Assembly (NCBI GenBank): GCA_017626055.1
Contig: JAGAJM010000006.1
Coordinates: forward strand, 124,001-188,000
DNA: 64,000 nucleotides
Reading direction: 5' to 3'
From: a bacterium
Lineage (GTDB): Bacteria > Cyanobacteriota > Vampirovibrionia > Gastranaerophilales > Gastranaerophilaceae
Shown here: one piece after another, positions 4,854-61,669 of the stretch
Numbering within the stretch: the stretch's first letter is position 1
Layout: every line of letters begins with the position of its first letter
Made by a program: the position numbers and the translations under genes
The notes under the pieces: generated by a model
The model's input: only the letters and a program-made list of their open reading frames with translations
Told to the model about the DNA's origin: nothing
Database searches by the model: none

Positions 4854-4961
4854 AGAAAACAAAATTATTTAGGATATCGAAATCCAGTATCTGGAGATAA
4901 CAGAATATTCTCTCAAGAAGATATTGGAAATTTTTTGTTTATTAATCTGAAAAAGGATTGA
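4854..4961 (+). pseudogene. fragment of the phage-type lipase gene (EDIG module)
   Basis: Bases 4854-4935 match 57065-57146 at 79 of 82 positions by eye. The frame is preserved: it reads R-K-Q-N-Y-L-G-Y-R-N-P-V-S-G-D-N then the I-F-S-Q-E-D-I-G-N-F start of the repeated module. Similarity stops abruptly after N-F and the frame ends at the TGA at 4959-4961. There is no plausible start. Two of the three mismatches are synonymous. This is a decayed or recombined piece of the gene found whole at 56273, about 52 kb away, left between the ctpA terminator and the next gene. Confidence 0.85.
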
Positions 4962-45418: not shown

Positions 45419-45622
45419 ATGAAATTATCCCCAACAAAACTCAAAGTTTTAACTCTAGTTGCTAAAGGTTTTACTGACAAAGAAATTTCCCAACAATTAC
45501 AAATGTCAACTCGAACGATTCAAACCCATCTTAATTCAATCGTATTGGCATTAAATGCCAAAAATAGAACACACGCAGTTGCATTGTATAAACACTACCA
45601 TCCTAAGTGGGACATATTTTAA
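45419..45622 (+). CDS. LuxR-type HTH regulator, 67 aa
   Basis: The product is a bare LuxR/GerE helix-turn-helix (L-T-L-V-A-K-G-F-T-D-K-E-I-S-Q-Q-L ... T-I-Q-T-H-L-N-S-I) without a sensor domain. GAGGTG precedes the ATG. As the first gene of the element it may activate the late genes; that is inference from position. Its end is 11 bases before the amidase start. Confidence 0.85.
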   Translation: MKLSPTKLKVLTLVAKGFTDKEISQQLQMSTRTIQTHLNSIVLALNAKNRTHAVALYKHYHPKWDIF

Positions 45623-45633
45623 GGAGAAATTTT

Positions 45634-46131
45634 ATGGTAAAGCGAATAATCTTGCACTGGAGCGCAGGAAGATATTATCCAAGTGAGTTTGAAAAAAGAT
45701 ATTACCATTTCCTTATTGATGTAGAGGGAAATGTATATTCAGGGTTATTCAAACCTGAAGATAATGATAACTGTTTGGATGGAAAGTATGCTGCGCACAC
45801 TGGCGGGGGAAATACTGGTTCTATTGGGGTTTGTTTGTGCGGAATGTTTGGATTTCAATCTTCATCAAATTGTGGAATGTTTCCGATATCAAAAATCCAA
45901 TTCGAAGCGTGTATGAAATTTGTAGCTGAACTTTGTGAAAAATATAAGTTGGAAGTTTCTAATCTTTCAGTATTGACACACTATGAGTTTGGAAGAATGA
46001 ACCCAAAAACATCTAGTGCAGGGAAAATAGATATCACTTATTTGCCCCCATATTCTTGGGTTGCAAAGGATGATATTGGCAATTTTATTCGTTCTAAAGT
46101 TCGTTGGTATAGAGAAAATTTAAGGGGTTAA
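45634..46131 (+). CDS. N-acetylmuramoyl-L-alanine amidase (endolysin)
   Basis: The 165-residue amidase_2/PGRP-type domain has the zinc His in I-I-L-H-W-S-A-G, A-A-H-T-G-G-G-N-T-G-S-I-G-V and L-T-H-Y-E-F-G-R. It cuts the bond between muramic acid and L-Ala to release particles. The ATG at 45634 has AAGGAGAAA at ideal spacing; the upstream in-frame start at 45607 lies inside the preceding gene. No signal peptide, so it needs the holin encoded at 48644. Confidence 0.92.
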   Translation: MVKRIILHWSAGRYYPSEFEKRYYHFLIDVEGNVYSGLFKPEDNDNCLDGKYAAHTGGGNTGSIGVCLCGMFGFQSSSNCGMFPISKIQFEACMKFVAELCEKYKLEVSNLSVLTHYEFGRMNPKTSSAGKIDITYLPPYSWVAKDDIGNFIRSKVRWYRENLRG

Positions 46132-46135
46132 CATT

Positions 46136-47659
46136 ATGGATATTAATTATTTTGATTTATCTGGAGGCATTAATCAAGCATCAACAAAAGCTGAACTTGG
46201 TTTAAATCCGAAAAGAATTTTTTGGTCTGATTCTGTAAATATTGAACTTTATAACAATAAAGGTATTACAAGACAGAATGGTAATAGTTTATTGTTAGAG
46301 CTTCCAACACCAGAAAAGATTGTCGGAATGTGTGAAATGGAGTCTGACGATTATTTTAAATTGGTTATAGTTACAGAAAGTGGAAAAATTTATATTTATA
46401 GTCAACAAGAAAATTCTTTGGTTTTACTTGAAAAAACTTTGACTGGGCAAAACCCGATTTTTGCACAATTTCTTAAAGGAATAATTATTGCAACTGAATC
46501 TGATGCAATGTTTTACATAAAGGATAATGATAGTTACGAAGTTGTTGATTGTAATCTTAAAGATTTAAGTGGTAATATTTGCTATCCTGATTGTGTAACT
46601 ATATATAAAGGTCGGGTTTGGTGTAGTAAGGATTCCACAATTTATTATTCTGCTCTTGGGATGTATGATGATTTTGAGCAAGAAGAAGATGCTGGTTATA
46701 TCAATGATTTCCACACTGATACATCAGACATTATTACAATGAACACTTATAAGGATTATCTGGCTATTTATAAGCGAGATAAAGTATATCTTTTGTCTGG
46801 TTCTAATCCTTCAGATTTTGCTATTACTTTATTTGCAGATAAAGGTTCTTGTGCTGCAAAAGCTATTGTTAACGTTGATAACAAACAGTACTTTTTAAGT
46901 AATGGTATTTATGCTTTAGAGCAAGTTGGGGAATTAAATCAAATCCGTTTGGGCTCTCAAATTTCTCAAAATATAAGAGAAGAGTTTAAACGATTTGACG
47001 AATCTCGTATGGATGAAACTTTTGTAGTTCATTATAAAAATAAACATCAAATGTGGTATTTCTTTCCGTATTTAGATAGTGAATATTTTCATACAATTTG
47101 GATAAACGATTACTTAAATAAGGCTTGGTATAAAAGGGTTGTCCCTCAAAATGTCGTTAGTGCTTGTGTTTTTAACACATATATTTTAACTGCGGATACT
47201 GAGGGGAAAGTTTTTCGTGAAGATTATGGTGGAACTTTCAATGGGGAAGTTATCCAGTTTATGTGGAAGTCACCTTTTCTTGCATTAGGAAATGTCTTAC
47301 ATCGTAAACTTATTGATGAGTTCTACTTTATTCTAGATGATATCAATGATAATAAATTCAAATTTTCTTTATATAAAGACTACGATAGTGAATATAAAGA
47401 TGATGTGGAACTTATTTTTTCAAAGCATTTTAGCCATTTTATGTGGGCAGGAGAGAATACCCCAGATAATGATGCTACTTATTGCTGGCATGATGGAGAA
47501 TCCGAAATCCCAGTATGGCCAATTAACTCAAATCCAAAAGAAAAAGCAGAAATTTGTGATAGCAATTATTCCATTCAATTGTGTATTGAAGGGGATGATT
47601 TAACCTGTAATTGCGCAATTATAGGTTTGCAATTTAGAGAAATTTATAACGATGATTAG
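46136..47659 (+). CDS. phage structural protein, beta-rich (stabilisation or tail-hub type)
   Basis: The 507-residue product starts D-L-S-G-G-I-N-Q-A-S-T-K-A-E-L-G-L and goes on with repeated beta-blades (I-V-G-M-C-E-M ... I-Y-I-Y-S-Q-Q). The opening pattern S-G-G-I-N plus blade repeats resembles podovirus head-tail stabilisation proteins. It starts four bases after the amidase. Exact assignment is uncertain. Confidence 0.75.
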   Translation: MDINYFDLSGGINQASTKAELGLNPKRIFWSDSVNIELYNNKGITRQNGNSLLLELPTPEKIVGMCEMESDDYFKLVIVTESGKIYIYSQQENSLVLLEKTLTGQNPIFAQFLKGIIIATESDAMFYIKDNDSYEVVDCNLKDLSGNICYPDCVTIYKGRVWCSKDSTIYYSALGMYDDFEQEEDAGYINDFHTDTSDIITMNTYKDYLAIYKRDKVYLLSGSNPSDFAITLFADKGSCAAKAIVNVDNKQYFLSNGIYALEQVGELNQIRLGSQISQNIREEFKRFDESRMDETFVVHYKNKHQMWYFFPYLDSEYFHTIWINDYLNKAWYKRVVPQNVVSACVFNTYILTADTEGKVFREDYGGTFNGEVIQFMWKSPFLALGNVLHRKLIDEFYFILDDINDNKFKFSLYKDYDSEYKDDVELIFSKHFSHFMWAGENTPDNDATYCWHDGESEIPVWPINSNPKEKAEICDSNYSIQLCIEGDDLTCNCAIIGLQFREIYNDD

Positions 47660-47725
47660 GAATTTAACAAATCACCACTCATAGACTTTGTGTAATTAGT
47701 TATGAAAAACGAAAGGGAAAAGAAA

Positions 47726-48577
47726 ATGTCAGAATTACAATCAAGCTATTCAGCTTTTATTCCTCAAATTTGGAGCCAAAAATTAAGTCAAATGTTAGAC
47801 AAAAATTGTGTAATGCTTCAATGTGTAAACAGAAATTGGGAAGGTGAAATTAAAAATCAAGGTGATACAGTAAAAATTATCACTCCTGCTGATGTTACAG
47901 TTTCAACTTTAACTTCTGAAAATATCGAATATTCAGCACTTACCCCAACTTCTCAAGATTTAGTTATTGATCAAAAGAAATTCTTTGCATTTAAAATTGA
48001 TGATGTTGCTCAAGTTCAATCTAATAGTGATATTATGGAAGCTCATTTAGGTAATGCTAAAAAAGCAATTGAAGAAGTTCAAGATGCATATTTATTATCG
48101 CTTCACACTGATGTAACAGAAGAAAATACAGTTGGTACAGAAGAAGCTCCTATTACTTTAGATAAAACAACAATTTATGAACAATTTGTGAAATTATCTT
48201 TAGCGTTAAAAAATTCTGATGCAGTTCATTCAGGTGTAAAACCTTGGGTCGTTATTAATCCGAACGTTGAAGCATACTTATTACAAAGTCCAGAATTTAT
48301 CTCTGCATATAACGTAGCTGATGAAACTTTAAGAGAAGGTTCAATCGGTAGAATTGCTGGTATGGATGTATTAGTAAGTACAAATTTAACAGAAGTTGAT
48401 GGCAAATATTATGTTTTAGCTGGTACAAATGATGCAATCACTTTTGCTTCTCAATTAGCAAAAATTGAAAGTTTAAGAGACAAAGATAGCTTCTCAGATT
48501 TAGTTAGAGGATTGTATTTGTATGGCGCTAAAACTGTACAACCAAAAGCATTAGCAAAAATGATTGTCGCTGTGTAG
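47726..48577 (+). CDS. major capsid protein (P22/N4-like coat)
   Basis: The 283-residue product (M-S-E-L-Q-S-S-Y-S-A-F-I-P-Q-I-W-S-Q-K-L) has the coat-type features F-I-P-Q-I-W-S at the start, N-R-N-W-E-G-E-I-K-N-Q-G-D-T-V-K-I in the first third and an I-A-G-M-D-V-L-V-S-T-N-L segment near the end, typical of HK97-fold coats. The ATG at 47726 has AAAGGG eight bases before it; an in-frame ATG at 47702 would add eight residues. A hairpin follows the gene. Confidence 0.85.
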   Translation: MSELQSSYSAFIPQIWSQKLSQMLDKNCVMLQCVNRNWEGEIKNQGDTVKIITPADVTVSTLTSENIEYSALTPTSQDLVIDQKKFFAFKIDDVAQVQSNSDIMEAHLGNAKKAIEEVQDAYLLSLHTDVTEENTVGTEEAPITLDKTTIYEQFVKLSLALKNSDAVHSGVKPWVVINPNVEAYLLQSPEFISAYNVADETLREGSIGRIAGMDVLVSTNLTEVDGKYYVLAGTNDAITFASQLAKIESLRDKDSFSDLVRGLYLYGAKTVQPKALAKMIVAV

Positions 48578-48587
48578 TTGGTTAAAT

Positions 48588-48620
48588 GTACTCCTCGTGG
48601 AGTTTTGTTGCGAGGGGTAC
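48588..48620 (+). terminator. attenuator-like hairpin after the capsid gene
   Basis: GTACTCCTCG (48588-48597) pairs with CGAGGGGTAC (48611-48620), ten pairs with one G-T. Only a short T stretch follows, so termination may be partial, which would keep capsid mRNA in excess over downstream genes. Confidence 0.6.
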
Positions 48621-48643
48621 ATTTTAAAAAAGGAGTTAGTGTA

Positions 48644-48892
48644 ATGTTTTCAAACGTAAAAAATAAAATTAAAGAATTGGCAAAAAAAGCTGTAATCGTA
48701 GCAGAAGCCGAGCTAGGATCTGGAAAAGGTCAAGAAAAAAAGAAATTAGCAATTCAATATATTGTTAACAAGCTCCCATTTGTTCCTCTCGTTAAAACAA
48801 TTATTTCGGTTCTTCTTTCAAGTTTTATTGATGATGTAGTAGAAATTTCTGTTGATTATATGAATTCTTTGCCAAGTATAGAAGGAGAATAA
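48644..48892 (+). CDS. phage holin, LLH-like
   Basis: I start at the ATG 48644, which follows AAAGGAG. The 82-residue product reads E-L-G-S-G-K-G-Q-E-K-K-K-L-A-I-Q-Y-I-V-N-K-L-P then a hydrophobic stretch V-K-T-I-I-S-V-L-L-S-S-F-I and V-V-E-I-S-V-D-Y-M-N. The G-S-G-K-G-x-E-K-K pattern followed by a helix and terminal amphipathic segment is that of the LLH/superfamily 6 holins. It would open the inner membrane for the amidase. Confidence 0.75.
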   Translation: MFSNVKNKIKELAKKAVIVAEAELGSGKGQEKKKLAIQYIVNKLPFVPLVKTIISVLLSSFIDDVVEISVDYMNSLPSIEGE

Positions 48893-48896
48893 TCTT

Positions 48897-49571
48897 ATGC
48901 AAAATCAAATAGGCGGAATGTTTCCGCAGTTTCAAAATAGTGTTTCATCGCCTGCCGTAAGTCCACAGGCAAATCCTAATTTGGGGTATAAAGATATTTA
49001 TTATCAATTAGAACAATCAATAGGTGCAGATGTTCAAAATGTTAATAATCTTATGTCCCAAGGCATAATATCACAACAACAAGGACAATATCTGTTGGCG
49101 CAATTGACTGCAAAGGCTCAATCTATAAATGCGTATAAAAATGCGCAAAGTAAAAATCAGATGCCAGTTCAACCTGTTCCAACTCCTGTTATGCAACCTC
49201 AAAATCCTATGGATTTGTTTAATCAAGAACGCCCAGGATTTTTTGATGCAGAAGGTAGAGGGGATGTTTTGAATTATATCAAAGGGTTAGATATGGACAA
49301 AGATGAAATCCTCAAAATTGCTCAACTTGTTGAAGGTCTGGAAAACTCAGCAGTTGATAAATATTTGAAAAAATCCGAATACGAGAAATCATTGAATGAC
49401 GAGAACTTACGTGCAAAGAGCAGGTTGACATCTTATGCTCAAAATGCTTCTTCTGACAACAAAATGACAAAGGTATTTACTCGTGAGGATATCGGCAGAA
49501 TGAGTGGTGAGGAATTTGCTAAAAATGAAAAATTGATTATGGAACAAGTTAAGCAAGGTCTAATCAAATAG
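48897..49571 (+). CDS. phage-type protein with C-terminal EDIG module
   Basis: The 224-residue product is Gln/Asn/Pro-rich (1-110) with a helical middle, and ends with V-F-T-R-E-D-I-G-R-M-S-G-E-E-F-A-K-N-E-K at residues 193-212, then V-K-Q-G-L-I-K. The same module occurs twice in the lipase-like gene at 56273. Position right after capsid and holin suggests a scaffold, decoration or minor virion protein. It has no other known domain. It starts four bases after the holin stop. Confidence 0.75.
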   Translation: MQNQIGGMFPQFQNSVSSPAVSPQANPNLGYKDIYYQLEQSIGADVQNVNNLMSQGIISQQQGQYLLAQLTAKAQSINAYKNAQSKNQMPVQPVPTPVMQPQNPMDLFNQERPGFFDAEGRGDVLNYIKGLDMDKDEILKIAQLVEGLENSAVDKYLKKSEYEKSLNDENLRAKSRLTSYAQNASSDNKMTKVFTREDIGRMSGEEFAKNEKLIMEQVKQGLIK

Positions 49572-49590
49572 TTTTTACAAGTTCGTAGTT

Positions 49591-49632
49591 AAAGGCTCGA
49601 ACGGGAATTCTGACTTTTCGTTCGGGCTTTTT
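49591..49632 (+). terminator. terminator after the EDIG protein gene
   Basis: AAAGGCTCGAACG pairs with CGTTCGGGCTTTT with wobbles; a T-run follows. It splits the late region into two possible transcripts. Confidence 0.7.
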
Positions 49633-49644
49633 AAAAAAGGAGAA

Positions 49645-50286
49645 ATGATGAATTATTTAAAACTAATAAATAAATGTTTGCTTGAGTTGAATTACAAACA
49701 AGTAAATGTATTTTCTGAACTTATTAAAAACGACCACAAACGAATTATTAATATTATGAATACTCTTAATCGAGAGCTTTGTGCCATCGAAGGTTGGAAT
49801 TTTTTATTAAGAAGAACTTCTATTATTCTACCTAAAGGTACAACAGAAATTGATAATGAAGTTGATGGACGAATTTTGTATCTGTTTGTAGATGGAAAAC
49901 GATATGATTATTGTGATGATGTGGAATTTTTTATGGAAGGAAATCCTAAAAATTATACGTATAGTGCATTTGCAAATAGATTGTTATTCCCAAAATTTGA
50001 TAATGATAAAGTTTTGGATGTTATTTATTTTACAAAAAATTGCGTTAAAGATTCTGCAGGTATGGAAAAAGAAGATTTTGAATATGAAACTGATGAATCA
50101 CTTATTCCAATGCCTTTTGTAGAACAATTGCTGGTGTATGGGACATGTTTGAGATTAAAAGCAAATCCTCAATATTTTAAGTTTCCATACTGGATAAGCA
50201 TGTACAAAGAAGCTTTGGCAAATTTAAAATCTAAGACAGCGGCATCAGCCTTAAATGCGCCAGTAGTGAAGATGTTTAGGAATTAA
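49645..50286 (+). CDS. head-tail adaptor or tail tubular protein-like
   Basis: The 213-residue product begins M-M-N-Y-L-K-L-I-N-K-C-L-L-E-L-N-Y and ends with V-E-Q-L-L-V-Y-G-T-C-L-R-L ... W-I-S-M-Y-K-E-A-L-A-N-L. This layout (helical N-terminus, beta middle, YKEAL-like C-terminal helix) is seen in T7 gp11/P22 gp4-type adaptors. AAAGGAGAAA precedes the ATG. The exact role is inferred. Confidence 0.65.
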   Translation: MMNYLKLINKCLLELNYKQVNVFSELIKNDHKRIINIMNTLNRELCAIEGWNFLLRRTSIILPKGTTEIDNEVDGRILYLFVDGKRYDYCDDVEFFMEGNPKNYTYSAFANRLLFPKFDNDKVLDVIYFTKNCVKDSAGMEKEDFEYETDESLIPMPFVEQLLVYGTCLRLKANPQYFKFPYWISMYKEALANLKSKTAASALNAPVVKMFRN

Positions 50287-50414
50287 GGGCAAAAAAAACA
50301 GGAAGTCCTTTTCATTCCCCCCTGTTAAGATTTACACTAGCCGAAATATAAATAGCATGTTCATTATACAAGTTATTTGGGAAAAATACAAATTATGATA
50401 AGAAATGTAAAGAG

Positions 50415-50849
50415 ATGAAACAATTAACACAACAACAAAAAAGGTTTGTAATCGAATATATTAAGACTCTTGATGGTGAATTCGCAGCCAAAAAATCCGG
50501 TTACAAATGCAAAGATTTGAAAAGTTTTGCCTCGTCATTATTGGCGAAAGATTACATTATCCATGAAATTAAGACTCAATTAAAATTACAGATAGAATCT
50601 TTGAGTGTTCAAAAGGGTTATGTTATCCAAAAACTTTTACAAATAGCCGAATTTTCGCTTCAAGAAGAAGATATTCTGGATAAGGATGGAAATCTTACTG
50701 GAAAGAAAAAATTAAGAGATCCTTCTGCTGGATTAAAGGCTTTAGAGGGATTGTGTAAGTATCTTGGTTTTTCTTCAGCGCAAGGTGATGACGAATATCA
50801 CGAGGCAAAAATTATTACTATTGCAAATCTAGATGATGAAAAAATTTAA
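50415..50849 (+). CDS. terminase small subunit
   Basis: The 144-residue product opens with the terminase small-subunit pattern L-T-Q-Q-Q-K-R-F-V-I-E-Y-I-K-T-L-D-G-E-F-A-A-K-K-S-G-Y, the HTH that recognises the packaging site. It is separated from terL by three genes, which is unusual. An imperfect hairpin lies before it in the 128-base gap. Confidence 0.85.
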   Translation: MKQLTQQQKRFVIEYIKTLDGEFAAKKSGYKCKDLKSFASSLLAKDYIIHEIKTQLKLQIESLSVQKGYVIQKLLQIAEFSLQEEDILDKDGNLTGKKKLRDPSAGLKALEGLCKYLGFSSAQGDDEYHEAKIITIANLDDEKI

Positions 50850-50868
50850 TTTATGAAAGGTCTATTCT

Positions 50869-51216
50869 ATGAAAAAGAATAATGATATTGAACAAATTTT
50901 ATTGAATGATTCAGCTTTTGAACAGGCTGTAAAAACAAAGATTGAGCATGATTTTAAAAAAGAATTAGAGAAAAAATCTAATGAAATTGTTTACATAACA
51001 AACATTAAAGACGTGCCAAAAGGTAAATTATTTACCAAATATTCTACATTTGAGGTAATAAATAAGAATAGCAAAACAAAATCCTACATAAATGGAGTGC
51101 AAGCTGAAGGTTATTTAGGTTCAAATGTTACTGACCGAATAAAGCTTCTGGCTGGTGAATCAGATTCATTTGTGTCAGGAAATAGTTATGTGAAGTTTAT
51201 CAAAGTAAAAGTTTAG
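50869..51216 (+). CDS. hypothetical phage protein, 115 aa
   Basis: GAAAGG precedes the ATG. The product is highly Lys/Glu-rich in its first half (D-F-K-K-E-L-E-K-K-S) and has a beta-rich second half (K-G-K-L-F-T-K-Y-S-T-F-E-V-I). No family recognised. It lies between the terminase small subunit and a GNAT-like gene, with two bases to the latter. Confidence 0.7.
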   Translation: MKKNNDIEQILLNDSAFEQAVKTKIEHDFKKELEKKSNEIVYITNIKDVPKGKLFTKYSTFEVINKNSKTKSYINGVQAEGYLGSNVTDRIKLLAGESDSFVSGNSYVKFIKVKV

Positions 51217-51217
51217 T

Positions 51218-51748
51218 ATGTGTAAATTTAAACGATTGGTTTTTGACAGTGGTACTATAAGCTCTTCGACTTTGCACTATATCCCTTTAATTGAAAAATG
51301 TTGGCATAAATATTCTAAATTTATTCAAGATGACTTTTCTTTGTTGACTGATAAAAACTCCTTACTAAAATTCATATGCAATCCTTTCTTTTGGGTCATC
51401 TTGGATTATGAGGAAAACTTTATGGGGTTTGTGTTTCTGGATAATTTTGTAGGTAATCAAAATAAATTATTCAGCGCAGAGATTACAACGTGTTTTGATA
51501 AAAAGGCTTGGGGGATTTTTCCTCGGTATAGTGCAAAATTTTTTTTGAAGATGTGCTTTGATTACTATGGCTTATACAAAATTAAGGCACAAATCTATCC
51601 TGATAATTTTAGGGTTCGAAAATTTTTAAAAGATTGTGGATTTGTTTATGAATCGACACTAAAAAATGAAACGCAAAGAAATGGTAAGTCTCAGGATATA
51701 GATGTATATGCCTTATACAGAAGTTATTATTACAAAGATTCGAGGTAA
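51218..51748 (+). CDS. GNAT-like acetyltransferase
   Basis: The 176-residue product has a GNAT-like core: W-V-I-L-D-Y-E-E-N-F-M-G-F-V-F-L-D (beta4), a K-A-W-G-I-F-P-R-Y segment and Y-G-L-Y-K-I-K-A-Q-I-Y-P-D-N-F-R-V-R-K-F-L, where N-x-R-V-R-K-F is the classic GNAT motif B. It starts two bases after the previous gene. Phage GNAT proteins modify host or virion proteins, but the target is unknown. Confidence 0.75.
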   Translation: MCKFKRLVFDSGTISSSTLHYIPLIEKCWHKYSKFIQDDFSLLTDKNSLLKFICNPFFWVILDYEENFMGFVFLDNFVGNQNKLFSAEITTCFDKKAWGIFPRYSAKFFLKMCFDYYGLYKIKAQIYPDNFRVRKFLKDCGFVYESTLKNETQRNGKSQDIDVYALYRSYYYKDSR

Positions 51749-51750
51749 TT

Positions 51751-53403
51751 ATGATTAATACAAAAATTGAAACAAATATTTTGGATAGTGTTGAAGAACA
51801 ATTTTTGTTAGGAAACATTATCAAAAAATATGACTATTATGAAGATACAAGAAGTTCACAATTATCTGATAATAGGCTTGTTAAATATGCAATTTATGAT
51901 GCTGATATTCCAAAGGTCAATGCTTGGGATTGTCATATTCAGTTGCCAGATATTTATGAATTGGCGCAAACTTTGAAATCGCATTTAATCCAAAATCTAT
52001 ATTCTCATCCAGATGGGATGTTTGATGTTGAAGGGAAAGATTTTGATACGCAGAAGTTTGCAAACAGACAAAAAGCGATGCTAGTTTCGACTTTTGAATC
52101 TATGAAGATTGAAGACGAGATGGAAAAGATTATTGATTCAGTTGTTGAAACAGGTGAAGTTACGTTGTTTGTCGGCTGGGAAACAAAAACCAGAAAAACA
52201 AGACGGGCAATTTCTCTAAAAGAACAGTTGGAATCTGGAATTGAAGCACCATTTGTTGTTGAAGATAAAGTTGTTTATGACAATGCAAAGGTTAAGTTTA
52301 TCAATTATGAGGATTTTGTATTTGATAGATCAGAAGCTGATAATTGGGATTCTTGTGCAAAGATTTACAAGACTTATCAGACTATTGATGAGATTAAGTC
52401 AAATAAGTCAAATAATTTGTTGAATTTGGAAAAACTGGAAATGTTAAAAGGGGTGGTGGCAAAAGATTCAAAGAAAAACAAAATGACAACCTATGAAACT
52501 AAGGTGGAGCTTTTAGAATATTGGGGTGATATTGAACTTCCAAATGGTGAGGTTTTGAAAAATAAATTAATAGTTGTTGCTGGTCGTAGTATTCTTATTA
52601 GGTTTGATGATAATCCTTTTATTATAAATCCGTTTATTCACGCAAATATTATTGAATGTCCAACAACAGGTAGAGGTATTTCGCCATTACGTGTTGCGTT
52701 GATTCTGAATAATATTTCGTCAACCATTTTGAATAAGCAACTAGATGCACTTTCTTTAATGATGAATCCACCATATCTTGCACCAAAAGGGTGTTTTAAA
52801 GGAGAGCAAGATGTTCGTCCTGGAAAAATTGTCGAATATGATGCATCGCTAATGACTTCACCACCAACTCCAATTTCTTTTGATAAGGCGATGCAAGGTT
52901 GGGAATTTTTAAATTATTTTAAATCTACAATCGAAAGTGCAACAGGTATTTTTAAAAATATGGCAGGAAATATCCAAACAGTAGAAAGAACTGCAACAGA
53001 ATTAAATTATTCTGCTGGTGGTCAAGAAGCTCGTTTGAATATGATTTTAGAATCTATAAACCGCAAAGTAATTATTCCAATGGTTGAAAAAACTGCTGAA
53101 ATTATTTCTAATTTTAAACTCGGTAAAGAATCAGTTTTAGCAAATGACAGAGGTAAAATTTATTTGGTTGAAATTGATGATAAAATTAGAAATGCTGATT
53201 ATATCTATCATTACGGAGATAGAAAAGCTACATTTGAACGAAAAGTTAGAATGAAAGAGTTGTTCGAGGTTGTTAAATCCTTCTTACAAATTGAAACTGT
53301 AAAAGATCGAATTGATTGGTTAGAATGTTTTAAATTCGCAATGGAACAATATGGGATTGAAAACTCTAACAACTTCTTGAAAGAGGAAAACATTCAAGAA
53401 TAA
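51751..53403 (+). CDS. portal protein (podovirus type)
   Basis: The 550-residue product has a helical clip/stem pattern (D-I-Y-E-L-A-Q-T-L-K-S-H-L, T-G-R-G-I-S-P-L-R-V-A-L, a G-Q-E-A-R-L-N stretch) typical of connector proteins. It directly precedes terL and is the right length for a podovirus portal. It starts two bases after the GNAT gene. Assignment from length, position and residue pattern rather than a single diagnostic motif. Confidence 0.78.
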   Translation: MINTKIETNILDSVEEQFLLGNIIKKYDYYEDTRSSQLSDNRLVKYAIYDADIPKVNAWDCHIQLPDIYELAQTLKSHLIQNLYSHPDGMFDVEGKDFDTQKFANRQKAMLVSTFESMKIEDEMEKIIDSVVETGEVTLFVGWETKTRKTRRAISLKEQLESGIEAPFVVEDKVVYDNAKVKFINYEDFVFDRSEADNWDSCAKIYKTYQTIDEIKSNKSNNLLNLEKLEMLKGVVAKDSKKNKMTTYETKVELLEYWGDIELPNGEVLKNKLIVVAGRSILIRFDDNPFIINPFIHANIIECPTTGRGISPLRVALILNNISSTILNKQLDALSLMMNPPYLAPKGCFKGEQDVRPGKIVEYDASLMTSPPTPISFDKAMQGWEFLNYFKSTIESATGIFKNMAGNIQTVERTATELNYSAGGQEARLNMILESINRKVIIPMVEKTAEIISNFKLGKESVLANDRGKIYLVEIDDKIRNADYIYHYGDRKATFERKVRMKELFEVVKSFLQIETVKDRIDWLECFKFAMEQYGIENSNNFLKEENIQE

Positions 53404-53428
53404 AACTAAGAAATATTGAGGTGTCTAT

Positions 53429-54718
53429 ATGAAATATACATTATTAGACGCACAGAGAAATTTTCTTGAAATTCCACATGATTATTCCTTGGACGTCGCA
53501 GTTTACCAAGGCGGCTATGGCTCTGGCAAGACTTTTGCTGGAGCCTTGCTGGGTATTTTGCTTGCGTTAAAATTTCCAGGGATTACAGGGCTTGTGGGTG
53601 CTCAAACTTATACTCTTGTGCGTGATACAACTTTGAAAACTTATTTTGAACATTTGGATAATATTGGCTTTGTGGATAAAGTTGACTACAAGTGGGTTAG
53701 TGCAGAACAAAAAATTGTATTTAAAAATGGGTCAGAAATTCTTTTTAGGCATTTTGATGAACCTAATAAGCTAAAATCTTTAAATTTGGGTTTTGTTGAA
53801 ATAGAGGAAATGTCTGATGTTCCGTATGATACTTTTAAGATGTTGCTTGCACGTATGAGGCAAAGAAAAAAGGCTGGGTGGCAAAATTTCACTTATCGAA
53901 TTTTTGGACATACTAATCCAGAGGTACAAAAAGGTTGGATTTATAAAACTTTTTATGATAATCCTCCGCCAAATTATCGCTTGATTTGTGCTCCAACTAC
54001 TCAGAATAAATATCTTCCTGAGGGTTTTTGTGATGAACTTAAAAAACTATATGACCAAAGTTATTATGAGATTTTTGTTTTGGGTAAGGCTGGAGATTAT
54101 AGTACAAATCTTGTGGTAAAAGATTTTACTGATGAAAATGTTAGAGAAATTAAATATCAACAGGATTTGGATGTACATATTAGTTGTGATTTTAACGTTG
54201 ATCCAATGGCGTGGGTTTTAGCTCATAAAACTGATGATAAAGTTTTTTATTTTGATGAATTGGTTTTGGAAAATACTACAACATCAAAGACTTGTGAAGA
54301 ATTTTATAATCGTTATCCTGAGCATAAAGGCAAGATTATTATAAATGGTGATGCGTCGGGTGATAACAGAAGTTGTACCAGCGAATACACAAATTATGTC
54401 ATTATAAAGCGAAAGTTGGAATCTTATGGTTATGAAGTAGATGTTAAAATCAAAGGCTTTAACCCTCCAATAAAAAATAGGGTTGCAGCGTTTAATGCAA
54501 AGGTTCGAAATGCCGATGGAGAAATTGGTTTGTATGTTTCGCCGAAGTGTGAAAAACTTTTGTATAACATTTATAACTTACGCTATATTGAAGGGACTTC
54601 TAAGATAGATGTTCCGACTTATACTCAGATAAAGCAGACTAAAGAATTGAAATTTTTATCACATCCATTTGATGCTGCATCATATTTGGTGGATTTTTAT
54701 TGGCCGATTGTACTTTAG
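53429..54718 (+). CDS. terminase large subunit
   Basis: The 429-residue packaging ATPase-nuclease has Walker A Q-G-G-Y-G-S-G-K-T (27-35), Walker B-like L-G-F-V-E-I-E-E-M and a coupling segment F-G-H-T-N-P. The C-terminal nuclease has Asp residues in I-S-C-D-F-N-V-D and I-I-N-G-D-A-S-G-D. The usual order terS-terL-portal is inverted. The next ATG follows directly. Confidence 0.93.
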   Translation: MKYTLLDAQRNFLEIPHDYSLDVAVYQGGYGSGKTFAGALLGILLALKFPGITGLVGAQTYTLVRDTTLKTYFEHLDNIGFVDKVDYKWVSAEQKIVFKNGSEILFRHFDEPNKLKSLNLGFVEIEEMSDVPYDTFKMLLARMRQRKKAGWQNFTYRIFGHTNPEVQKGWIYKTFYDNPPPNYRLICAPTTQNKYLPEGFCDELKKLYDQSYYEIFVLGKAGDYSTNLVVKDFTDENVREIKYQQDLDVHISCDFNVDPMAWVLAHKTDDKVFYFDELVLENTTTSKTCEEFYNRYPEHKGKIIINGDASGDNRSCTSEYTNYVIIKRKLESYGYEVDVKIKGFNPPIKNRVAAFNAKVRNADGEIGLYVSPKCEKLLYNIYNLRYIEGTSKIDVPTYTQIKQTKELKFLSHPFDAASYLVDFYWPIVL

Positions 54719-54733
54719 ATGAAAGGGGAAAAT

Positions 54734-54961
54734 ATGGAAAGTATTATTTATTATGCACCTGTAATAGTGGTGGTGTTAATGTTTTTAATTCACGAAAGAA
54801 TTGTTGTAACACCTGAACAGTTAGAGAAAAAACATAGAGAAATTATAAAAGAGGTCGAAAGTCGATTTGCAACAATTGATAGTTGCGAAGACTTAAAAGG
54901 TCAGATAACTGATATGAAAGACAAGATAGACAAAATCTATGATTGTCTAATTTTGAAGTGA
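54734..54961 (+). CDS. small membrane protein with coiled coil, 75 aa
   Basis: The ATG at 54734 follows AAAGGGG. The product has one N-terminal transmembrane helix (Y-Y-A-P-V-I-V-V-V-L-M-F-L-I) and a long charged helix ending K-G-Q-I-T-D-M-K-D-K-I-D-K-I. Similar small phage proteins with a membrane helix plus coiled coil are common near lysis or packaging genes; function unknown. Confidence 0.7.
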   Translation: MESIIYYAPVIVVVLMFLIHERIVVTPEQLEKKHREIIKEVESRFATIDSCEDLKGQITDMKDKIDKIYDCLILK

Positions 54962-54969
54962 TGTTTGAA

Positions 54970-55003
54970 TACAAAAGGAGAAAATTATGAAACCGAAATA
55001 AAT
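54970..55003 (+). repeat. ribosome-binding-site micro-ORF repeat, copy 1
   Basis: A good Shine-Dalgarno (AAAGGAG) is followed by ATG-AAA-CCG-AAA-TAA, a four-codon frame at 54987-55001. Nearly the same block recurs at 55847. It looks like a truncated gene start left where a minus-strand cassette joins. Confidence 0.65.
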
Positions 55004-55014
55004 AACCATAATGT

Positions 55015-55377
55015 TTAATTATTTATTAGAACTATTAAAAATAGGATATATGCAAGAATATTTAGGCAACCTATTAAAAAGCCAAAGTAGAATAGTGGCA
55101 AATGAATATATTTTATAAACTTATTTTTAAAATGGATTTTTGATATTTTTTTAGGATTTGTTTTTCTGATATACGTTTCTATGAAAAAAGTGCTTGCAGT
55201 TAGTAGTAATGCGTAGATTATAACTGAATATAATTCTATCGTGTTTTCAAGTGTTAAATATAGGGTTGGGTATTGTGTAATAATTCGATTTTGTATTAAG
55301 CAATACAGAAAAAGAAATATAAAAAAATAAGAAATTATTGAAAATAGATTTAGTGAAATATATTTGTAAATTTTCAT
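55015..55377 (-). CDS. minus-strand membrane protein A, 120 aa
   Basis: About four hydrophobic segments are seen (Y-F-F-I-F-L-F-L-Y-C-L, I-I-Y-A-L-L-L-T-A, L-P-L-F-Y-F-G-F-L-I, I-L-F-L-I-V-L-I) with a polar T-N-P-K-K-I-S-K-I-H middle. On the minus strand TATTAA lies six bases before the ATG at 55377, the pattern of other genes here. Resembles the next two in size and layout. Function unknown; a superinfection or membrane-modifying role is speculation. Confidence 0.55.
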   Translation of the reverse strand: MKIYKYISLNLFSIISYFFIFLFLYCLIQNRIITQYPTLYLTLENTIELYSVIIYALLLTASTFFIETYIRKTNPKKISKIHFKNKFIKYIHLPLFYFGFLIGCLNILAYILFLIVLINN

Positions 55378-55422
55378 ACGACATTAATAACATGAGGACA
55401 CTAAAAATAAAAATGCAAATTA

Positions 55423-55767
55423 TTATTTTATAAATATCGAACTGATAATTACAAGTAATATTGGTAAACTACCTAAAGTGAATAGTATGTAAAATATGAT
55501 TGATAAAATTTTGTTCAATTTATTTGGCATATTTATTCTGAATGGAAATTTTAGATTTGGAAATAGTTTTTCAATAATGGCATGAAGTAATATCTCAATA
55601 ATTAAAGCTCCGCAGCAATATATGTATAACACAAGTGAGCCAGTGGAAATCATTGAGTATTTTTCATTCCTGATTATAGGAGGCATAGGTTCATGTGTAA
55701 TATACGTTGGAGCTGGTTCTATAAATATATTAGCAGCAATCACGGTGACGATAGCTGTAATACCCAA
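55423..55767 (-). CDS. minus-strand membrane protein B, 114 aa
   Basis: The frame begins at a TTG (55767) with a TTATAT-like -10 six bases before it; no ATG is available. The frame reads open further upstream (about 20 codons, K-F-L-D-L-R-K-Y-F-F), so the true start is uncertain. Layout parallels protein A: hydrophobic, polar P-A-P-T-Y-I-T loop, hydrophobic, basic linker, hydrophobic end. Possible plus-strand membrane frame on the opposite strand (55622-55867) is less likely. Confidence 0.4.
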   Translation of the reverse strand: MGITAIVTVIAANIFIEPAPTYITHEPMPPIIRNEKYSMISTGSLVLYIYCCGALIIEILLHAIIEKLFPNLKFPFRINMPNKLNKILSIIFYILFTLGSLPILLVIISSIFIK

Positions 55768-55846
55768 AAAGATATATAAATATGCGAAAAAATATTTTCT
55801 TAAATCTAAAAATTTTATAAATAAATGTTATTACAAACTAATAAAA

Positions 55847-55880
55847 TACGAAAGGGGAAAATTATGAAATCGAAATAAAT
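55847..55880 (+). repeat. ribosome-binding-site micro-ORF repeat, copy 2
   Basis: Matches copy 1 closely: AAAGGGG then ATG-AAA-TCG-AAA-TAA (frame 55864-55878). It stands directly at the 3' end of membrane protein C. Confidence 0.65.
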
Positions 55881-56236
55881 TAATTGGGTTTAACAAGATA
55901 CAATATCAAACTTAAATATAGAAGTATTGTGATAATAGGAAATGATACTAAAGAAAATTTTTGCAATTTTGTAAGTGTTTTGTTTAAAAGAATTTTCATA
56001 GTTGCGATTGCGGATATTGGGGTAATTATTACATACAGTTGAAAAATAAGAAGAATTATTATCGCTAAAAATAAATAAGTAACAATATTTAAAAGTATTT
56101 GAGATTCTGCAACCGAACCATATAAATATACAAAAAAGAATGAAAGTAATACAAATAATATGAAATTTATGATTGTCGCAAAACACTGAAAATAAAAATA
56201 TAAATTTAATAAAATTCGTAAGAATAAATTGTTCAT
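55880..56236 (-). CDS. minus-strand membrane protein C, 118 aa
   Basis: I start at the ATG 56236 because TATAAT sits exactly six bases before it on the minus strand. The product has about four hydrophobic spans (F-A-T-I-I-N-F-I-L-F-V-L-L, I-V-T-Y-L-F-L-A-I, S-F-P-I-I-T-I-L-L). A longer frame to 56314 adds residues that overlap the next gene's start. Same size class as A and B. Confidence 0.55.
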   Translation of the reverse strand: MNNLFLRILLNLYFYFQCFATIINFILFVLLSFFFVYLYGSVAESQILLNIVTYLFLAIIILLIFQLYVIITPISAIATMKILLNKTLTKLQKFSLVSFPIITILLYLSLILYLVKPN

Positions 56237-56242
56237 AAAGAA

Positions 56243-56248
56243 ATTATA
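56243..56248 (-). promoter_or_regulatory. -10 element for membrane protein C, predicted leaderless
   Basis: Perfect TATAAT on the minus strand, six bases before the ATG at 56236. It lies divergently in front of the lipase-like gene. Confidence 0.55.
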
Positions 56249-56272
56249 CAAAATTATAAGGAGAAATACAAT

Positions 56273-57307
56273 ATGACAAATATGAATAAATATAAAGAAA
56301 TTCTGGATTTTCATTATGGAGTGCAGAAAAATTTAGAGATAAAAGGTTGGATACCTTTAGATGACTATAATAATCTGTTAAATAAATCAGCTTTAGATGC
56401 TAGAGTTTACAAAAAAGACGATAGAATCGTGATTGCGTTTGCAGGTTCTACATCGCCAAACGATTATAAGAATGATGCAGATATATTGATTGGTAAAATC
56501 CCATCTCAATATTTTGTTGCAGAGAATTTATATAATGCTATTAAGAAAAATTATCCATCAGCCAAAATTGAATCTACGGGTTATTCTCTCGGTGGTACAT
56601 TATCTAACTTATTAGCACATAGATTTGGTATAGAATCAAATGCTCTAGCTCCGATTGGTAGTAAAAATATTGTAAATAAGCATAGGGATTATTTCACTTA
56701 TGATGATGGGAATATAACTACATTCGGTAGGAAGGGGGATATGTTTTTTAATGCAAATATAAATTCCCAATCTGGTAAGATTTATATAATGGATGATATT
56801 CCAAGTGATATGGCTAAATTTCCTGCAAAAGTCGATAATCATTATTTACATAATTATAATCCATATGACTTATATAATGCAAAACCTTGGAATAAACAAG
56901 GTCAACCGACTGGTTTTGCAGCACCTATGCTTCAATCTCAAATTCAACAACCTAAGATTTTCACACCAGAAGATATTGGCCAAATGACACCAGAAGAATT
57001 TTCAAAGAATGAAAAAACAATCAATGAGCAACTTCAACAAGGCTTGATAGCTCCAACAACCCAGAGAAAACAAAATTATTCAGGATATCGAAATCCAGTA
57101 TCTGGAGATAATAGAATATTCTCTCAAGAAGACATTGGAAATTTTTCTGGGGAAGAATTTACCAAGCACGAAAAAGAAATTCGAGGACAATGGGGAAGTA
57201 TAGGAATTCCTACAAATAATGAGCTCCAAACTTCAGGTGCAATTTACATCGCACCATATATAAGAAGTGATGGGGTGCAAGTGAAAGGTCATTATCGTTC
57301 AAGATAA
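56273..57307 (+). CDS. lipase-like alpha/beta-hydrolase with two EDIG modules
   Basis: The 344-residue product has an alpha/beta-hydrolase part (1-200) with I-A-F-A-G-S-T and the nucleophile elbow G-Y-S-L-G-G (Ser105), a likely Asp near 145-156 or 200, and His190 or His193. A linker leads to two copies of the EDIG module (229-259 and 282-311) and a C-terminal Y-I-R-S-D-G-V-Q-V-K-G-H-Y-R-S motif common in phage proteins. AAGGAG precedes the ATG. It would hydrolyse lipid or ester bonds; possible virion cargo. A terminator follows. Confidence 0.8.
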   Translation: MTNMNKYKEILDFHYGVQKNLEIKGWIPLDDYNNLLNKSALDARVYKKDDRIVIAFAGSTSPNDYKNDADILIGKIPSQYFVAENLYNAIKKNYPSAKIESTGYSLGGTLSNLLAHRFGIESNALAPIGSKNIVNKHRDYFTYDDGNITTFGRKGDMFFNANINSQSGKIYIMDDIPSDMAKFPAKVDNHYLHNYNPYDLYNAKPWNKQGQPTGFAAPMLQSQIQQPKIFTPEDIGQMTPEEFSKNEKTINEQLQQGLIAPTTQRKQNYSGYRNPVSGDNRIFSQEDIGNFSGEEFTKHEKEIRGQWGSIGIPTNNELQTSGAIYIAPYIRSDGVQVKGHYRSR

Positions 57308-59515: not shown

Positions 59516-61669
59516 ATGGGATTGGCAGCTTCACAAGCTAGATTTTTATGTATAACAGCAAGAAAGGCTGATTGTGAATACAAAACAACAGCTCTTGCTC
59601 AAGAGAAGCTCGATATCACTAAACAGTTGGGTGATATTTCGACTCAGTATGCTCAAGCAATGAATGCTACTAAATTGATTTGGTCAAATGAAGCAGTTGC
59701 AAGTGATTATGGTTTATCATATAGCTTAATGATGATGCCTACTGCGGCAAATGATTATAACCCTTATATGATTACATCTCCATCAGGTGCAATTGTATTG
59801 AATAGTGAATATGCTGCTGCTGCAAAAGCTGCAGGTATTTCAAAAGCTGGTGGTATTGGTTCTCAAGAATCAAGGGATAAATTCATCGCAGCTTTAGCTC
59901 ATGGTGGTTTGATTACAAATGAAACTGCCAAAGCTATTACTAAATATGATTTTGAAGTTATAGGTGTTGATGCATCTGGTAAATTAGAGTTCAATGAAGT
60001 TTCTGAAGCAAGTTCTAATCCAGTTGATTGGAATCCAGCAGCAGGTATGGGGGCTGCTCCGTTAGATAAAGCTGGAGTTCAACCTATAACTTTATCTGAA
60101 ATGTGTTTGACTGATAATATTGGTAAAGATACTATTGACTGGGGTAAAATGTTTACATCAGCTGGTCAAATTACCAAAAAAGAAGCTGAGAAAAAGATTG
60201 AAAATTTAAATGGATTATTATCTGATCTTGGTTCTAACAAAATAACTAGAGATATTGTTGAATATTTACAACAAAAATACAATAACTATCAATTGAATCC
60301 TCAAAATGAAAAAGGTGAATCTGTTGATAAATCTACAACTGAATATGCTGCAGAATGTGCAAGATTAAAAGATTTAATTTTCTGTGCAGAAAATGTAACA
60401 TCAGTTGATGCTAATGGCAATATTTTATCAGCAGGAGTAGCTTATGTAGATTCTACTGGTAATAATGTTAAGGCTGATAAGGTATTTGATGATGTTGAAA
60501 CACTTATAACTAATGAACTTGAATATTACAAATCAATAAAAGATGACCCTACAAAAGCAAAAGTTGTAGATATTTCAACATTTGTTTATACAGATAGCAA
60601 TGGTGATGGTCAGCCAGATAATGTTGATGCTAAATTCAACACTTATAGCAACTCTCTAGCTCCGTTGTTATGGGGTATTGACTATGCGGTTGTAGAAAAT
60701 GGTGTAATCAATCACTATGCTGATGAAATTTCTAATTTGACTTTAGCTGATGTTCTTACTGGGGATATTGTTTTAATGTCAACTGAAAACAGTGTATTTG
60801 GTAAAACCAAAACTAAAGAACAATTCAGAGATGAAGTTTTAAAATTGTTTAGTTCTATGGTTGCAACTTTAGGTTATTCAAAAACTGAAGATTTGTATGG
60901 TACAGGTTTATATGTTGATGAGGCATCTAAAAATGCCCTTGCATTTGCGTATGATATGATCGAGAGAACATATCTAAATACAAAAGATATTCAAGATGTT
61001 GGTTCTAAATATAATTCAACATCAATGGTTGATAATAGCGCATATCAAAACGCTATAAATTCAAACAGAATTGGTTCTGATGAAACGAATTCATATTGGG
61101 CAGTAAGTTTATCAAATATGATGTCTGCTTTCTTGACATATTATGAAAATGCTTTATCAGGTGTAACTTCACCATATGCAGTTGGTGTAACTATTGATAC
61201 TTCAGATTATGTTACTGATAACTTAGATTACTACTATATGGCAAAAGTTGGTGATGATGCAAACTCTGGAGCAGTGGCAAGAGCAGCAGATTTCTATGAT
61301 CAAGTTTACAACAATATTTTAGAACACGGCTGGAGAGAAGATGCAGCAATTGATGATTCTGAATATTTAGAATCAGCATTAAAAGATGGTCGTTATTCTA
61401 TGACTTCATTAAATCAAGATGGTTACCACTATCAAACTAGATATAATGAGACAGGTTATATGGTTGAAGTTTCAGATACCGATGCAATTGCAAGAGCAGA
61501 AGCAGAATTTACGGCAATGAAAGCTCAATTGACTTATAAAGAAGATACAATTGATATGAAAACTAAGAAATTAGATGCTGAAATTTCAGCTTTATCAACA
61601 GAATATGATACAGTTAAAAACCTAATTTCAAAAAGTATCGAAAAAACATTTGCTATGTTCCAAAACTAA
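59516..61669 (+). CDS. large flagellar-late-type or surface protein with terminal coiled coils
   Basis: The 717-residue product starts M-G-L-A-A-S-Q-A-R-F-L-C-I-T-A-R-K-A-D-C, a start I associate (from memory, unverified) with hypothetical proteins of this lineage. Helical heptads flank a large central region, as in flagellin and hook-associated proteins. A D-S-N-G-D-G-Q-P-D-N-V-D loop resembles a calcium-binding EF-hand/thrombospondin site. No signal peptide, compatible with flagellar export. AAAGGA precedes the ATG. The sigma-28 promoter supports a late flagellar or motility-linked role. Confidence 0.75.
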   Translation: MGLAASQARFLCITARKADCEYKTTALAQEKLDITKQLGDISTQYAQAMNATKLIWSNEAVASDYGLSYSLMMMPTAANDYNPYMITSPSGAIVLNSEYAAAAKAAGISKAGGIGSQESRDKFIAALAHGGLITNETAKAITKYDFEVIGVDASGKLEFNEVSEASSNPVDWNPAAGMGAAPLDKAGVQPITLSEMCLTDNIGKDTIDWGKMFTSAGQITKKEAEKKIENLNGLLSDLGSNKITRDIVEYLQQKYNNYQLNPQNEKGESVDKSTTEYAAECARLKDLIFCAENVTSVDANGNILSAGVAYVDSTGNNVKADKVFDDVETLITNELEYYKSIKDDPTKAKVVDISTFVYTDSNGDGQPDNVDAKFNTYSNSLAPLLWGIDYAVVENGVINHYADEISNLTLADVLTGDIVLMSTENSVFGKTKTKEQFRDEVLKLFSSMVATLGYSKTEDLYGTGLYVDEASKNALAFAYDMIERTYLNTKDIQDVGSKYNSTSMVDNSAYQNAINSNRIGSDETNSYWAVSLSNMMSAFLTYYENALSGVTSPYAVGVTIDTSDYVTDNLDYYYMAKVGDDANSGAVARAADFYDQVYNNILEHGWREDAAIDDSEYLESALKDGRYSMTSLNQDGYHYQTRYNETGYMVEVSDTDAIARAEAEFTAMKAQLTYKEDTIDMKTKKLDAEISALSTEYDTVKNLISKSIEKTFAMFQN

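Follow-up and report, generated by a model that had tools for sequence, protein, structure and literature searches.

The closest described counterparts of the system considered here are the MuF polymorphic toxins of temperate phages (Jamet et al. 2017, PMC5576092), which combine a common phage head-associated module with varied toxin domains, follow an effector-immunity logic and have been proposed to be virion passengers. We analyzed a stretch of 64,000 nucleotides (the window) from a member of the Gastranaerophilaceae, in which a short module, here called EDIG, is shared by a predicted phage head scaffolding protein and a lipase-like toxin candidate. MuF is a head-morphogenesis domain found in the packaging modules of prophages, whereas the EDIG module lies at the scaffold C-terminus and toward either end of toxin-like effectors, whose genes are mostly orphans. 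The Bxa proteins, a prophage-encoded polymorphic toxin family of Bacteroides (PMC11699363), likewise join a common domain to varied toxins with cognate immunity, but that domain is their own and N-terminal, and they differ in phylum and in toxin domains. The present system differs from both MuF and Bxa in its scaffold-type tag and in a fixed carrier resembling a gene transfer agent (GTA).

The scaffolding protein of phage P22 binds coat protein via a C-terminal helix-turn-helix of 36 residues (268–303), and engineered fusions of enzymes to this scaffold become encapsulated in procapsids (PMC9962691). The resemblance to the window protein, a C-terminal domain of ~36 residues on a helical scaffold, is one without sequence match, and the proposed cargo would be natural toxins here instead of the engineered enzymes of P22. 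Another short prohead-directing peptide is the capsid targeting sequence of phage T4, a tag that sends internal proteins into the prohead; likened by description, it differs from the EDIG module in being ~10 residues long, N-terminal and cleaved. The carrier itself finds a parallel in FpGTA I of Faecalibacterium, a podovirus-like cluster of ~10 kb that makes DNA-containing particles (PMC12946183). FpGTA I also belongs to a gut commensal and is similar in size and content, with small and large terminase (TerS, TerL), portal, scaffold and major capsid protein (MCP) genes; it belongs to another phylum, its particles were tested, and cargo effectors are not mentioned in the section consulted, while the cluster described here is known from its genes alone.

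A module shared by a predicted scaffold and toxin-like proteins

The module comprises 33 residues (consensus NRIFTREDIGKMSGEEFAKNEKAIMEQLKNGGI) and is carried by two window genes in three copies, as a preliminary description of this DNA had proposed; both the coordinates and the profiles described below bear this out. One copy (49467–49565, forward strand) spans residues 191–223 of a 224-residue protein (gene at 48897–49568, forward) and is followed by a single residue. The other two (56954–57049 and 57110–57208, forward) span residues 228–259 and 280–312 of a 344-residue lipase-like protein (56273–57304, forward). The claim that the module is terminal is therefore accurate for the 224-residue protein, but the lipase copies precede a tail of 32 residues (57209–57304, forward) that carries a YxRSDGxxVKGHYRS motif and ends in GAIYIAPYIRSDGVQVKGHYRSR. 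To avoid circularity, homology profiles were made solely from other loci or genomes and run against the 163 open reading frames (ORFs) of the window. A hidden Markov model of 55 scaffold-type modules, all taken from loci other than this one, detected the two lipase modules at independent E-values of 8.2e-16 and 2.2e-11, and a model of 83 cargo modules, none of them from this genome, detected the copy in the 224-residue protein at 1.2e-17. The likeness of scaffold and lipase modules is thus not due to chance.

Elsewhere in this genome, a PBECR1-nuclease protein (C23:87 kb) and a truncated protein (C20:54 kb) carry two further module copies each and a fourth protein (C20:96 kb) carries one, making five outside the window. 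What had been described as a fourth, broken copy at 4854 is indeed cassette-derived DNA, with 96% identity to nucleotides 793–874 of the window lipase gene, but it is a non-coding remnant of 82 bp (4854–4935, forward); with no gene around it, we rejected it as a gene.

The 224-residue protein is likely a phage head scaffolding protein, because genes of its type adjoin the MCP gene in related loci (~0.8–1.4 kb from the MCP start), the module occupies its extreme C-terminus, distant relatives match a scaffolding family or lie between portal and coat genes, and the predicted structure is helical. The window protein itself matched no scaffold family in Pfam and PHROG searches. A distant relative, L077, matches the head scaffolding family phrog_206 (E=6.5e-10), relative L081 matches phrog_8865 (E=0.0067), and L082-type relatives occur in HMO-2011-type phages, where the relative in HMO-2011 is gp48, encoded between the portal and a P22-like coat gene. 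Among named phage records, only the L082 type gave HMO-2011-type phages; no significant close relatives of the window scaffold or of L077 were found there. The AlphaFold2 model is all-helical and of modest overall quality (mean predicted local distance difference test score, pLDDT, 69; predicted template modeling score, pTM, 0.28), with the module at a pLDDT of about 82–90 and folded into three short helices (residues 196–200, 204–209 and 211–219). Since the P22 scaffold uses a C-terminal helix-turn-helix, the module may, by analogy, bind coat protein.

Among 386 genomes sampled from the phylum, the module is present in 106, of which 104 belong to the family of the window. The remaining two come from a different family of the order and from the class; in them, too, the module mostly ends scaffold-like proteins or tags DUF6973-like ones. 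The best 80 matches of a scan of GTDB contigs were mostly titled Gastranaerophilales, Melainabacteria or gut bacterium. A spread among unrelated cytosolic proteins, which would have spoken against a phage link, was not seen: the carriers read were scaffold-position or toxin-like proteins.

Toxin-like effectors and candidate immunity genes

The 344-residue protein resembles class 3 lipases. Its matches to Pfam Lipase_3 (E=0.003) and to NF047388 SA1320_fam (6.3e-11) fall below the respective cut-offs, its homolog L311 matches Lipase_3 above cut-off (2.6e-5), and the serine of GxSLGG, an Asp and a His are aligned. Among the fetched loci, certain of which are repeated, 109 module-bearing ORFs are of non-scaffold type, in two arrangements. 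Either one to three modules and then the tail lie toward the C-terminus, or a single module on the N-terminal side is followed by the tail and then a variable region. Domains recognized in these tagged proteins are PBECR1 nuclease, GH108 muramidase, serum amyloid A (SAA), DUF6973 and Lipase_3, besides a cluster termed C0; a common module is thus combined with diverse toxin domains, as in polymorphic toxins. A tail motif (R-x-DG-T-x-V or W-V-T-x-NGNH) is present in 86 of the 109 cargo proteins and in 0 of 109 scaffold-type proteins. Three genes of the window's own genome with differing N-terminal parts have a common 3' end of ~350 nt at 90–100% identity, and identity drops to chance at the start of the first module (two of the three share slightly more). 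This sharp junction, together with the cassette remnant at 4854–4935, indicates that effector cassettes are shuffled by recombination within the genome in the style of polymorphic toxins.

Several tagged proteins deserve separate mention. Loci L145, L179 and L325 hold two to four tagged effector genes in tandem, as though cassettes had been stacked by recombination. PF00277, the serum amyloid A domain, matches the tagged bacterial protein L184:9289-10080 (E=1.5e-18), and the domain is also present in L133 and L161. The module-bearing protein L166:4025-4408 ends in a MuF-like domain (PF04233, narrowly missing the cut-off) and so joins two phage-toxin themes; this weak match was the only one, PF04233 being absent from the window proteins. 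Anti-phage defense families gave no PADLOC match.

Divergent from the lipase gene lie three genes (55015–56314, reverse strand) for small membrane proteins of 120, 114 and 144 residues with 3, 3 and 5 predicted transmembrane segments, a candidate immunity array. Transmembrane segments were counted by a simple hydropathy rule, and the probabilities that follow take related loci to be independent. Immediately upstream of 12 of 15 lipase-type genes, a divergent gene encodes a small membrane protein with three or more predicted segments (baseline 1.0%, p=7e-22), and a same-strand membrane protein follows 24 of the 25 cluster-C0 genes that have a downstream neighbor (baseline 2.0%, p=3e-40). All three GH108 muramidases have an upstream gene for an LprI lysozyme inhibitor, each above the Pfam cut-off. 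Neighbors of the cognate-immunity kind known from polymorphic toxins therefore accompany the lipase, C0 and GH108 types; no such partner was seen for PBECR1 genes. On the strength of these neighbors, we consider it very likely that the tagged proteins are antibacterial effectors with immunity genes, and the LprI and membrane partners suggest that the effector targets lie outside the cytoplasm.

The phage-like cluster around the capsid gene

The predicted scaffold gene is part of a compact podovirus-like cluster (45419–54961, about 45.4–55.0 kb of the window). On the forward strand it encodes, in order, an N-acetylmuramoyl-L-alanine amidase (AMI; 45607–46128, Pfam Amidase_2 E=2.3e-12), a virion structural or tail protein of 507 residues (VIR507; 46136–47656, phrog_3287 virion structural protein E=8e-19), an MCP of the N4-gp56/phrog_267 type (47702–48574, phrog_267 major head protein E=3.1e-51; TIGR04387 E=8e-9, below cut-off), a holin-like protein (48578–48889, phrog_6918 holin E=7.5e-7), the 224-residue protein, a tail or adaptor protein (ADP; 49645–50283, phrog_6013 tail protein E=4.5e-5), TerS (50415–50846, Pfam Terminase_2 E=1.1e-14), two small genes, an SU10-like portal (51751–53400, Pfam SU10_portal E=2.2e-16), TerL (53429–54715, Pfam Terminase_3 E=3.5e-21) and a further small gene. 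At its left end, a gene for a 67-residue LuxR/GerE-type helix-turn-helix protein (45419–45619, forward; Pfam GerE E=3.1e-14) represents a family that lies on the left side of 38 loci and upstream of the cluster in most related loci, and is a possible cluster regulator.

Flanks and gene order are constant within genera, and certain left-flank genes are common to several genera. The ratio of nonsynonymous to synonymous substitution (dN/dS) is 0.02–0.27 for the structural genes. In eight loci of one genus, the distances of TerL, portal and scaffold track those of a flanking host gene (r 0.61–0.68, permutation p 0.003–0.006). Among the ORFs of window 45.4–57.3 kb, none for an integrase, a repressor or a replication protein was seen. 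The constant site, purifying selection and host co-divergence make the cluster look like a domesticated podoviral element long kept in chromosomes, with the GTA-like combination of a chromosomally fixed, vertically inherited structural cluster under purifying selection that is free of an integrase. A simple integrase-bearing prophage was rejected because no integrase was seen and the chromosomal site is fixed.

IMG/VR lists contigs of this chromosomal element (L068-L075, L267-L296) as viral genomes; these may be host fragments and not free viruses. Large proteins of the MGLAASQARFL... type (window 59516–61669; L034:1803-3563) are present in at least two copies in this genome, and loci from five genera encode a member of this family downstream of their cluster.

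Proposed particle loading and alternative routes

Across 288 genomes of the family, TerL occurs in 169 and tagged effectors in 128, and the two tend to be found together (Fisher p between 2e-8 and 2e-23 depending on the cut-off, with no correction for phylogeny). Among the effector matches listed, 11 of 138 lie within 15 kb of TerL, where 2.2 were expected, a five-fold enrichment (p=1.4e-5). We therefore weighed the following model, in which each step is conditional. A phage head scaffold, encoded by the GTA-like, domesticated podoviral cluster that Gastranaerophilales chromosomes carry, would have the module as its C-terminal domain, probably one that binds coat, and this domain would have been reused as a portable tag on antibacterial effectors. 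The effectors (lipase, PBECR1, GH108, DUF6973 and others), bearing one or two modules and a short tail and encoded beside immunity genes, would be drawn into the assembling procapsid the way the scaffold is, and the particle would then release them into other cells. The computed support for this model consists of module homology, the position and prediction of the scaffold, effector-immunity pairs, shuffling, the fixed locus and purifying selection; coat binding, loading, delivery and killing are steps that we infer. We regard a phage-linked polymorphic-toxin repertoire with a scaffold-type tag for particle loading as about evenly balanced between right and wrong. The stronger proposal that the GTA-like particle is a weapon, its effectors fused to the scaffold coat-binding domain, packed into heads and delivered to rivals while immunity genes protect kin, is put forward more tentatively.

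Several observations weigh against particle loading by a scaffold-type tag. The Fisher test carries the phylogenetic caveat given above, the majority of effector genes are orphans far from the cluster, and the MCP co-diverges only weakly with the flanking host gene (r 0.32, p 0.07; eight loci of one genus). Genus g6, with 15 effector-bearing genomes, has tagged effectors without this TerL, and in the g6/g19 loci read the effectors lie inside a siphovirus-like head/tail cluster. Because the scaffold-like protein of that cluster has no detectable module, a simple scaffold-copy model does not explain the effectors of g6/g19, although the phage linkage holds there; the tail may contribute in these effectors. 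In these loci (L309-L315), tagged effector genes stand between structural genes, with tandem membrane-protein genes upstream of the lipase. Effector modules are no closer to the module of their own genome's scaffold than to those of congeners (0.587 vs 0.575), and co-evolution with the own scaffold as partner was rejected for want of a signal. A structure-homology comparison gave no credible solved-structure homolog for the module. Finally, the tail motif, being absent from scaffolds, may be the real trafficking signal. The preliminary description had named as support a module always at the termini of phage-linked proteins next to capsid genes, which does not hold, given the few listed matches near the terminase and the many modules near an N-terminus; its suggestion of a targeting or packaging tag fits the scaffold-like and toxin-immunity carriers, but capsid adjacency is not general.

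Much of this evidence is shared with an alternative in which the tagged proteins are polymorphic toxins whose module and YTRSDGT or WVTINGNH tail form a signal for another route, such as a secretion system or release by lysis, the likeness to the scaffold C-terminus being the result of an old recombination and unused in loading. The tail motif confined to effectors, the orphan genes and the effectors without an EDIG scaffold in g6, g19 and g2 (in one g2 locus a tagged gene lies among chromosomal genes with no phage cluster) all favor it. However, genome co-occurrence with TerL, enrichment near the cluster and the placement of g6/g19 effectors within another phage head/tail cluster count against it, as does the failure to find the type VI secretion marker VipB in 26 genomes of the genus, other secretion systems not having been searched; on that absence, we rejected a type VI route. 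We consider this alternative unlikely, though the strongest of the three.

Less probable still is that the cluster is a common prophage rather than a domesticated element, belonging to an active small podovirus whose morons or ordinary internal head proteins would be the effectors, serving host takeover, superinfection exclusion or lysis. The cluster's storage as viral contigs in IMG/VR, the holin and amidase genes, and the presence of the module in lytic phages such as HMO-2011 relatives are consistent with such a phage, but the lack of integrase, repressor and replication genes in the region read, the constant locus under purifying selection and co-diverging with its host flank, and the extracytoplasmic targets indicated by the LprI and membrane partners argue against it. 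A generic motif for protein-protein interaction, short, helical and unconnected with virion loading, would suit the module's 33 residues and the lack of a solved homolog, but this reading is improbable given that the module's carriers are limited to scaffold-position and toxin-like proteins and that just 2 of the 386 phylum genomes carry it outside the family.

If particle loading by a scaffold-type tag is correct, it would represent a new means of arming a phage-derived particle, via a detachable scaffold tag, and a single fixed capsid cluster could be loaded with a shifting assortment of toxins whose genes may lie anywhere in the chromosome. As a weapon, the particle would be the natural counterpart of engineered P22 scaffold-fusion loading, and the module would be a short tag already at hand for directing proteins into capsids. 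It would also give GTA-like elements a testable role beyond gene transfer and provide a candidate antagonism system for the poorly studied Gastranaerophilales.

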